The notes beneath the pieces were generated by a model. That model had not been told where the DNA came from. It made no database searches and saw only the letters and a list, made by a program, of their open reading frames with translations. A DNA stretch of 64,000 bases from Nanobdellota archaeon. Its GTDB lineage: Archaea; Nanobdellota; Nanobdellia; Woesearchaeales; WJKV01. This document shows positions 55,348-58,648 of the stretch, piece after piece. Each line of letters opens with the position of its first letter. The first letter of the stretch is position 1. The DNA is taken from the NCBI GenBank assembly GCA_023133595.1, contig JAGLWF010000001.1, positions 97,693-161,692 on the forward strand, in the 5' to 3' direction. Position numbers and translations under genes: made by a program.

Positions 55348-56376
55348 ATGGGTTGTGCGATTACTGAATTATTAACAGGTCAGGAGATTGAGCTTGAAGG
55401 CCTGAAAGGAAAGATTCTTGTTGTAGATGCATTCAATATGCTGTACCAATTTCTGACAACTATCCGGCAGAGAGATGGCACTCCATTAAAGGATTCAAAA
55501 GGAAACATTACTTCTCATCTTACTGGCTTGTTCAACCGTACTACAAAATTCATGGAGATTGGCATGAAACTGGCTTTTGTGTTTGACGGGGAAGTTCCAG
55601 AGCTAAAAGCTGCAGAGCGGGCAAGAAGAAAGGTTGTGAAAGAAGCTGCAAAGAAACTCTATAAAGAAGCAGTAGAAAGAGAGGATGTAGAAGCAATGGG
55701 CAAATATGCTGGAAGGTTTACACGCCTTGCAAATGATATGATTGAGGAGAGCAAAGAATTGCTCAAGGCACTAGGCTTGCCTGTTATCCAGGCAGCGACA
55801 GAAGGAGAGGCGCAGGCAGCAGCCATAGTGAAAAATAATGATGCGTGGGCTGTTGTGAGCCAGGATGCAGATTCCTTTCTGTTCGGCGCAGACAGGGTTA
55901 TCAAGAACCTGAGTGTTGCTGGAAGGCGGAAACTGCCTTCAAAATTTGCATTCACAACAGTGAAACCTCAGGTATTCGACCTGAAAGAAAATCTGAAAAA
56001 ACTGGAAATCACGCAGGATCAATTGATTGCTCTTGGTGTTCTTATTGGAACAGATTTCAATCCCGGCGGAATCAAAGGTATTGGTCCGAAGAAAGGATTA
56101 AAGCTTGTCAAGGAGCATGGAGAAGATTTTGAAAAAGTGTTTGCATCAGTCGACTGGCCGTTTGACTATTCCTGGAAAGAACCATTCAAGCTTATCAAAA
56201 ACATGAAAGTCACAGACAAATACAAGTTGGAATGGAAAAAAGTTAATCAGGAAAAAGTTATTGAAATCTTATGCAAGAGACACGATTTCTCAGAAGAGCG
56301 GGTTGTCAAGAAATTAAAGGATATTTCTAAGAAGCAAGAAAAACAAAAGCAGAAAGGATTATCACAATGGTACTGA
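55348..56376 (+). CDS. fen: Flap endonuclease 1
   Basis: LVVDAFNMLYQFLTTIRQRDGTPLKDSKGNITSHLTGLFNRT, EGEAQAA, SQDADSFLFGA, GIGPKKGLKLVKEHG; C-terminal QKGLSQWY PIP-box. Confidence 0.97.
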   Translation: MGCAITELLTGQEIELEGLKGKILVVDAFNMLYQFLTTIRQRDGTPLKDSKGNITSHLTGLFNRTTKFMEIGMKLAFVFDGEVPELKAAERARRKVVKEAAKKLYKEAVEREDVEAMGKYAGRFTRLANDMIEESKELLKALGLPVIQAATEGEAQAAAIVKNNDAWAVVSQDADSFLFGADRVIKNLSVAGRRKLPSKFAFTTVKPQVFDLKENLKKLEITQDQLIALGVLIGTDFNPGGIKGIGPKKGLKLVKEHGEDFEKVFASVDWPFDYSWKEPFKLIKNMKVTDKYKLEWKKVNQEKVIEILCKRHDFSEERVVKKLKDISKKQEKQKQKGLSQWY

Positions 56377-57377
56377 CTGTCAAATCAAAGCAGAAGTATG
56401 CGCAGAAGATTAAGAAATTGCTTATCTCTAAAGATATCTTTAATCAAGATTATAAAATCAAAAGAGAAAAAGGATATGTATATCTACCAGTCACAAAGAA
56501 GATATCTAAGCCAAGGCTTGATTTTGCAGACAAGAAACTTACAAAAGTAGAAAAGAAAGTATCTTTACAAGCAGTATTAAAGCAAAAATTAACAAAAAAC
56601 GAACTGGAAGCTGTTCCGTCTGCTTTTGACATTGTAGGGGAGATTGCGATCTTGGAAATAAAGGACGAGATAAAGAAGCACGAGAAATTTATTGCGCGAA
56701 CTCTGCTTAAGTTGCATAAGAATATCAAAACTGTAGTGAAGAAAGCTTCTATCCATGCAGGGGAATTTCGACTTCAGAAGATGAAGCATCTGGCAGGGAA
56801 GAGAACTAAGATTGCAATGCACAAAGAGAGTGGGGTGCGGATAAAACTGGATGTTGAGAAAGTATACTTCAGTGCAAGACTATCTAATGAAAGACTGCGA
56901 ATAGCTAAGCAGATTAAGAAAAGAGAAGATATCCTGGTCATGTTCAGTGGATGCGCTCCGTTTCCATTGGTTATTGCAAAGAATAGCCCTGCGAAACGGA
57001 TTGTAGGAATAGAAAAGAATCCTATCGGACATAAGTATGCTCTAGAGAATCTTAATCTGAACAAGAAGGTCTCTGGAAGAGTCGAGCTGTATAAAGGAGA
57101 TGTTAGAAAAATTATTCCAAAATTAAAACAGAAGTTTGACCGGATACTGATGCCATTGCCAAAGTCTGCTGAAGATTTTCTTCCTGATGCTTTGAGAGCA
57201 GCAAGAAAAGGAACAATAATCCATCTCTATGATTTCCTGGATGAAGAAGATATTCCAGATGTTGCGATTGCAAAGATAAAGAAGCATGTCAAGAAATTCA
57301 AAATTCTCAGAGTTGTGAAATGTGGACAATTCTCTCCTTCTGTATTTCGGATCTGCGTTGATTTTAAGTTAGAATAA
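56367..57377 (+). CDS. Class I SAM methyltransferase, Trm5-like tRNA (guanine37-N1)-methyltransferase
   Basis: AVPSAFDIVGEIAILEI, KTVVKKASIHAGEFRLQKMKHLAG, HKESGVRIKLDVEKVYFSARLSNERLRIAKQ, VMFSGCAPFPLVIAK. Confidence 0.9.
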   Translation: MVLTVKSKQKYAQKIKKLLISKDIFNQDYKIKREKGYVYLPVTKKISKPRLDFADKKLTKVEKKVSLQAVLKQKLTKNELEAVPSAFDIVGEIAILEIKDEIKKHEKFIARTLLKLHKNIKTVVKKASIHAGEFRLQKMKHLAGKRTKIAMHKESGVRIKLDVEKVYFSARLSNERLRIAKQIKKREDILVMFSGCAPFPLVIAKNSPAKRIVGIEKNPIGHKYALENLNLNKKVSGRVELYKGDVRKIIPKLKQKFDRILMPLPKSAEDFLPDALRAARKGTIIHLYDFLDEEDIPDVAIAKIKKHVKKFKILRVVKCGQFSPSVFRICVDFKLE

Positions 57378-57383
57378 AAAAGT

Positions 57384-57451
57384 GTGCTCAGCAGTTACTC
57401 CGTCCATTCATCTCCGTTAGGATCAGACGGTGTTCACCTTCTTCATTGCAC
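57384..57451 (-). ncRNA. Candidate archaeal C/D-box sRNA
   Basis: Minus strand GUGC-A-AUGAAGA(C, 57440-57446)-AGGUGAACACCGU-CUGA(D', 57423-57426)-UCCUAACG-GAGAUGA(C', 57408-57414)-AUGGACGGAGUAACUG-CUGA(D, 57388-57391)-GCAC; terminal stem GUGC/GCAC; only long gap between convergent genes in the window. Confidence 0.65.
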
Positions 57452-57493
57452 AAAATATAATATGAGAACTCTTGTTTATAAAGTTTATGGGAT

Positions 57494-58648
57494 TTATCCA
57501 AACATCTTCACAAAATCAGTAGCATCTTCTTTTGTCTTGTCCTTGACCTTTTCGACAGCACTGATAAAATCATCGTGTACCACATGCGAACGATCCTCTC
57601 TAATTGCAAAGTAACCTGCTTCAGTACAGATAGCGCGAACCTCTGCGCCAGATAGACCTTCCATCTCATGGATAATAGTATTCCTGTTAACTTTCTTCAA
57701 ACTCATGTCTCTAGTATGGATCTTGAAAATCTGCTGCAAACCTTTGGTGTCTGGCAGGTCTATATATATCTGCCTGTCCAATCTTCCTGGTCTGATCACC
57801 GCAGGATCCAGTATGTCGCGGCGGTTTGTTGCTGCGATTATCTTGACATTGCCAAGCTCTTTGAAACCATCTAATTCTGCCAGAAGCTGCATGAATGTTC
57901 TTTGGACTTCCCGTTCTCCAGAAGTGCCAATGTCCATTCTTTGTGATGCTAGTGCATCAAGCTCATCGATGAATACAATAGAAGGTGCTTTCTCCCGTGC
58001 AAGTTCAAATATTTCGCGCACTAATTTTGCTCCTTCACCAATAAATTTCTGCACTAACTCTGATCCAACAATCTCAATAAATGTGGAATTAGTGCTTGCT
58101 GCCACTGCTTTGGCCAACAATGTTTTTCCAGTACCTGGCGGGCCGTGGAGCAGTATTCCCTTTGGGGGCTTGATTCCAACTTTCTCGAAAAGTTCTGGCT
58201 TCAGGAGCGGAAGTTCGATAACTTCTTTTATCTCCTCTCTCTCAGCCGCTAATCCACCGATATCTTTCCAGGATACTATTGGTTTATCAATTATGACAAA
58301 TTTCTCAACATTGAACTTTTTCATGGAATGGACTTTATCAACAATAACAAGATTCTTTTGATGCGCCAGGACAAAATCTCCAGGCTTTAGTTTGTTTACA
58401 TTGCTAGAGATGTTCACAAAAAATTCGTTTCCATTCTTCAGACTTAGAATAGCCTTATCATCTATCAGGTCCCTGACTTCACAAATCAAAAATGGAGGGG
58501 TGTGAAATTTTGCCATCTCATTCTTGAGATGCTCGATAGTATTACGCAGAATCCTGTTCTCCTCTTCTAAAGAACTAATGTTAGTAGTGTACCCATACAT
58601 CGCCTTTTCAAGTTCGTCTGATTTCGTCCCCATTCCAATATACAACAC
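57494..58648 (-). CDS. pan: Proteasome-activating nucleotidase (AAA+ ATPase)
   Basis: Coiled-coil N-terminus, OB region, GILLHGPPGTGKTLLAKAVAASTNSTFIEIVGSELVQKFIGEGAKLVREIFELAREKAPSIVFIDELDALA. Confidence 0.95.
   Translation of the reverse strand: MLYIGMGTKSDELEKAMYGYTTNISSLEEENRILRNTIEHLKNEMAKFHTPPFLICEVRDLIDDKAILSLKNGNEFFVNISSNVNKLKPGDFVLAHQKNLVIVDKVHSMKKFNVEKFVIIDKPIVSWKDIGGLAAEREEIKEVIELPLLKPELFEKVGIKPPKGILLHGPPGTGKTLLAKAVAASTNSTFIEIVGSELVQKFIGEGAKLVREIFELAREKAPSIVFIDELDALASQRMDIGTSGEREVQRTFMQLLAELDGFKELGNVKIIAATNRRDILDPAVIRPGRLDRQIYIDLPDTKGLQQIFKIHTRDMSLKKVNRNTIIHEMEGLSGAEVRAICTEAGYFAIREDRSHVVHDDFISAVEKVKDKTKEDATDFVKMFG

Follow-up and report, generated by a model that had tools for sequence, protein, structure and literature searches.

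The window, a 64,000-nucleotide stretch of DNA from a Nanobdellota archaeon, contains an element with the full layout of a C/D-box sRNA (57384..57451, minus strand, 68 nt). The sequence-only reading had put it forward as an unannotated C/D sRNA, a proposal borne out by the layout, by order-wide conservation and by guide pairing with 23S rRNA. We are highly confident, on sequence comparison, that it is a dual-guide archaeal box C/D sRNA for 23S U2552 and U2438 that does RlmE's job in this order, and it very probably directs the chemical modification of two positions in the catalytic centre of the ribosome. Comparison across genomes reveals its structure and conservation, the pairing of guides with targets and their co-change, and also the exclusivity and shared locus of the sRNA and RlmE: the two are mutually exclusive between the genomes searched, and the RNA guide and the enzyme for one nucleotide seem to alternate at one locus.

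Layout and surroundings of the element

Read from 57451 to 57384, the minus strand is GTGC-A-ATGAAGA-AGGTGAACACCGT-CTGA-TCCTAACG-GAGATGA-ATGGACGGAGTAACTG-CTGA-GCAC. The closing stem is formed between the 5' arm GUGC (57448..57451) and the 3' arm GCAC (57384..57387), and it encloses a C box, AUGAAGA (57440..57446), with one mismatch to RUGAUGA, and a D box, CUGA (57388..57391). The box C/D kink-turn has a three-base bulge, and the lone unpaired A between the stem and the C box fits this. The D' guide AGGUGAACACCGU (57427..57439) is followed by properly spaced internal boxes, D' CUGA (57423..57426) and C' GAGAUGA (57408..57414), and then by the D guide AUGGACGGAGUAACUG (57392..57407). On re-reading the sequence, the four boxes, their order, the guides, the 4-bp stem and the target strings were all as the sequence-only reading had given them.

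Both strands were scanned for this layout, allowing at most one mismatch each in C and C' and requiring two CUGA boxes, guide lengths in range and a 4-bp stem. It occurs at a single place in the 64-kb window and in none of 150 simulated first-order Markov windows, which puts the chance expectation below 0.01 per window, a figure that is somewhat favourable because the scan was patterned on the finding itself. Conservation is the stronger test of the element.

The element is intergenic. It lies between a Trm5/TYW2-type tRNA methyltransferase gene (56367..57377, plus strand; Pfam PF02475, E 2.4e-45), which is convergent with it, and the gene for a proteasome-activating AAA ATPase, PAN (57494..58648, minus strand; Pfam AAA and Prot_ATP_ID_OB_C), on the sRNA's own strand. 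Both neighbours are conserved: PAN and/or Trm5 is found within 2.5 kb at 53 of 59 non-redundant sRNA loci, both at 32, with the sRNA on either strand relative to them. A putative TATA box, CTTTATAAAC (57474..57483, minus strand), precedes the 5' end of the sRNA by about 26 nt, and a T6 run that closely follows its 3' end (57376..57381, minus strand) is a likely terminator. Across 95 homologues, TATA-like motifs and an A+T peak recur at the corresponding spacing, about 26 nt ahead of the stem, and T content in homologues is maximal 12–16 nt past the D box. Judging by these upstream and downstream peaks, the sRNA probably comes with a promoter and a terminator of its own.

Conservation of the sRNA family

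When 40 relatives were searched by blast with 101 nt, four further genomes of the order proved to carry the element, each time next to Trm5 or PAN genes; a 25-nt match at L006 was rejected as a chance similarity to the AT-rich stretch upstream. When both guide cores were searched as an exact pattern across 84,980 species, 58 stretches were returned, about 49 of them in Woesearchaeota or DPANN archaea, and the nine bacterial stretches were read as chance. The covariance model R1 detects the sRNA in about four in five of the order's genomes (113 of 145) and in 118 of 194 genomes of a phylum-wide sample; its match in the window's own genome (G000, E 3.6e-15) is so by construction, this being the seed sequence. 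Since the model also finds genomes with guides unlike the seed pattern, the conservation is not merely a product of the pattern chosen.

Structure and guides are both conserved. In an alignment of 50 homologues, all seven pairs of the closing stem show changes on both sides, with double changes in 98 cells compared with 34 in shuffles and a covariation score of 0.624 against 0.201 when shuffled; slid registers score lower. L245 (G207), a weak match with an unclear D guide, was set aside. The internal boxes are more variable, the C'/D' boxes being degenerate and a plain hairpin present instead in roughly 19 of the 50 (counted by eye). Rows of alignment A1 such as L054, L057, L060, L067 and L089 illustrate this, with a short hairpin replacing the C'/D' boxes while both guides are kept. 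In L167, L184 and L188 the C and D boxes are replaced in pairs (AUGAUCC with GGGUAG, for instance), which looks like a kink-turn giving way to a plain helix. L176 (G078) has a tandem pair of near-identical sRNA copies, the 3' half of the first being altered.

No Rfam family matched the window element at or above the gathering cut-off. At a lax threshold the best matches all belonged to C/D families, most of them archaeal sR families; sR1, sR14 and sR44 have a similar layout (E 0.013–0.08, scores far below gathering), with guides that differ from those of the window sRNA. A literature search turned up nothing on the C/D sRNAs of Woesearchaeota. The element is a member of a so far unlisted sRNA family, order-wide in these uncultured DPANN archaea, of a kind, the archaeal C/D sRNA, that is already known.

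Pairing of the two guides with 23S rRNA

No rRNA was found in the assembly of the window's own genome, and the targets were therefore read in the 23S rRNA of relatives. There the D' guide GGUGAACACC (57429–57438) pairs at 10 of 10 positions with the A-loop sequence GGUGUUCACC (E. coli 2550–2559), and the D guide CGGAGUAACU (57393–57402) at 10 of 10 with AGUUACUCCG (E. coli 2435–2444). Alignment with E. coli rrlB places the N+5 nucleotide of the D' guide at exactly U2552, opposite A57431 of the minus strand, and that of the D guide at U2438, opposite A57396 of the same strand. Both are U, as the fifth-base rule of the sequence-only reading had predicted; of its longer target strings, the inner 10 nt of each match 23S and the outer bases do not. 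That reading had staked its claim on an rRNA match of at least 9–10 bp and on conservation, and we find 10 contiguous pairs for each guide and homologues throughout the order.

The two duplexes are not equally uniform among relatives. A few genomes (G186) retain one mismatch in the D' guide. The D duplex has 10 contiguous pairs for the window's sRNA, whereas in most relatives it has 6–7 pairs and a 1–2 nt bulge, with CGG opposite CCG, so methylation of U2438 is less certain there than for the window's sRNA. Ungapped scans of the 16S and 23S rRNA of G004, G013 and G015 gave alternative D-guide sites of equal rank; 2435–2444 is preferred because guide and rRNA change together and because a second sRNA points to the same region.

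The co-change extends to both guides. Where 23S carries U2437C, U2441C, U2555C or U2552G, the sRNA guides are altered to match. In the host order the guide GUAACU is paired with 23S AGUUAC; in G146, G155, G170 and G192 AGUAGCU is found with AGCUACU; and in G177, G186, G205 and G236 (the last by eye) AGGGUAGCU is found with AGCUACCCU. In other families of the class the D guide follows 23S at positions 2437, 2441 and 2443, with 9–10 contiguous pairs, and over the seven core D pairs of 19 genomes the mean is 6.84 with a genome's own 23S against 5.56 with a differing 23S. For the D' guide, G192 has GUGGACAC with a GGUGUCCAC-type A-loop, and G177 has G in place of U2552 and a guide with C at the matching place. 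Such compensatory change in guide and rRNA supports the targets, and evidence of this kind is rare in work without any experiment. The A-loop reads GGGGGUUCACC in L257 (G177) and L018 (G024), where 2552 appears to be G rather than U, and the D' guides GUGAAUCCC of G177 and of G136, from the same family as G024, fit this changed loop.

Several genomes encode a second C/D sRNA, in which the D guide, CGGAAGUAACU, is unchanged and the D' guide, GUUAUUCCCGG, pairs over 11 bases with 23S CCGGGGAUAAC (2442–2452; N+5 at G2446, by eye), a stretch adjoining the U2438 target. Its carriers are L148 (as a second copy), L165, L172, L174, L175, L179, L185 and L186. L162 (G019) has a further C/D sRNA that shares this D guide but carries an unrelated D' guide, CUUUACCCAU. 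The co-change and the second sRNA together make it nearly certain, as far as sequence can tell, that U2552 and U2438 are the targets of the D' and D guides, respectively. The literature search yielded no report of methylation at U2438 in archaea.

Expression, sRNP assembly and methylation are inferred. Transcription of the sRNA would be driven by its own TATA box or result from read-through of PAN, and the sRNA would assemble with L7Ae, Nop5 and fibrillarin, the last of which is encoded in the same genome (G000:C18:11374-11994, E 6.1e-73). The D' guide would then direct 2'-O-methylation of U2552 in the A-loop, and the D guide that of U2438 beside the peptidyl-transferase centre.

A genuine C/D-type sRNA could instead act mainly as a chaperone of rRNA folding, binding 2435–2444 and 2550–2559 together and so drawing these two domain V segments together, while methylation would be secondary or, at one of the sites, missing. 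Bridging or chaperone roles have been proposed for other dual-guide archaeal sRNAs (PMC4644070), both guides here aim at the same domain, most relatives have a bulged D duplex, and in many the C'/D' boxes decay while the guides are kept. We nevertheless consider this unlikely, as the exact N+5 register on U2552 and the exclusion with the U2552 methylase RlmE argue for methylation at least by the D' guide; the D guide could have a partial chaperone action. Somewhat less probable again is that only the U2552 guide methylates and the D stretch serves sRNP assembly or another RNA target. The interrupted D duplex of most relatives and the equally ranked rRNA sites in some genomes would be in keeping with a single functional guide, but the D guide tracks 23S at three positions, the second sRNA sharing it pairs with the adjoining stretch, and the window's own D duplex is perfect. 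A chance arrangement of boxes, or a conserved DNA or mRNA element such as a terminator or 3' UTR, is hardly credible: the boxes are short, a T-tract follows and the site lies between convergent genes, but the layout is rarely expected by chance, occurs in either orientation relative to its neighbours, and combines order-wide conservation with stem covariation and guide–rRNA co-change.

Probable exchange of the sRNA with RlmE

Methylation of U2552 is achieved in more than one way. In bacteria it is made by RlmE (FtsJ). Some archaea, such as Haloferax, have an RlmE homologue and others a guide, such as sR25 in Pyrococcus abyssi (PMC2584109); C/D guiding of U2552 is predicted for five of seven archaea (PMC4644070). 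The sRNA family described here resembles sR25 and the other predicted archaeal Um2552 sRNAs in being a C/D guide to the first A-loop nucleotide (PMC2584109, PMC4644070), a likeness of target, and differs from them in coupling U2552 and U2438 guides, in its PAN–Trm5 locus and in being order-wide, whereas guide pairs in archaea reportedly change fast (PMC7994747).

RlmE (FtsJ/RrmJ) acts on the same nucleotide as the D' guide, but as a stand-alone protein that is not RNA-guided, and the preferred dual-guide reading has the sRNA filling, in the host order, the role that RlmE plays in other prokaryotes. A profile search found no RlmE in the window's genome (G000). The FtsJ profile PF01728 also matched many weak methyltransferases, which were rejected as not being RlmE. 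Within the order, RlmE is present in 8 of 145 genomes, spread over five families, and none of the eight has the sRNA (expected overlap 6.2); in the phylum-wide sample it is present in 25 of 194, again none with the sRNA (expected overlap 15.2). Enzyme and sRNA therefore never share a genome in the samples searched, with hypergeometric probabilities of 2.6e-6 (order) and 3.9e-12 (phylum), uncorrected for shared ancestry.

Yeast provides a parallel, in that a guide RNA, snR52, and an RlmE-family enzyme, Spb1, are likewise able to make the same mark, Um2921, and do so redundantly (PMC2584109). The yeast pair coexist in one cell, whereas here the two are mutually exclusive between genomes. The backbone of the RlmE tree lacks resolution and settles neither replacement of enzyme by RNA nor the reverse.

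The two solutions also share a chromosomal place. In one member of the window's own family, G001, PAN is followed after 5 nt by RlmE and then by a convergent Trm5 (L106 308-3102), with no sRNA, so that RlmE occupies the syntenic position of the sRNA between PAN and Trm5. G008 has the same PAN–RlmE–Trm5 arrangement with one small gene in addition (L107 308-3481) and likewise no sRNA. It is therefore probable that in this order guide RNA and RlmE are interchangeable Um2552 solutions that have displaced each other at the PAN–Trm5 position, sometimes within one family, a natural experiment in how RNA-guided and stand-alone enzymes swap for one near-universal ribosome mark. RlmE also directly follows PAN in G090, where there is no sRNA (L255 2871-4567), and in several other families of the class it is convergent with Trm5.
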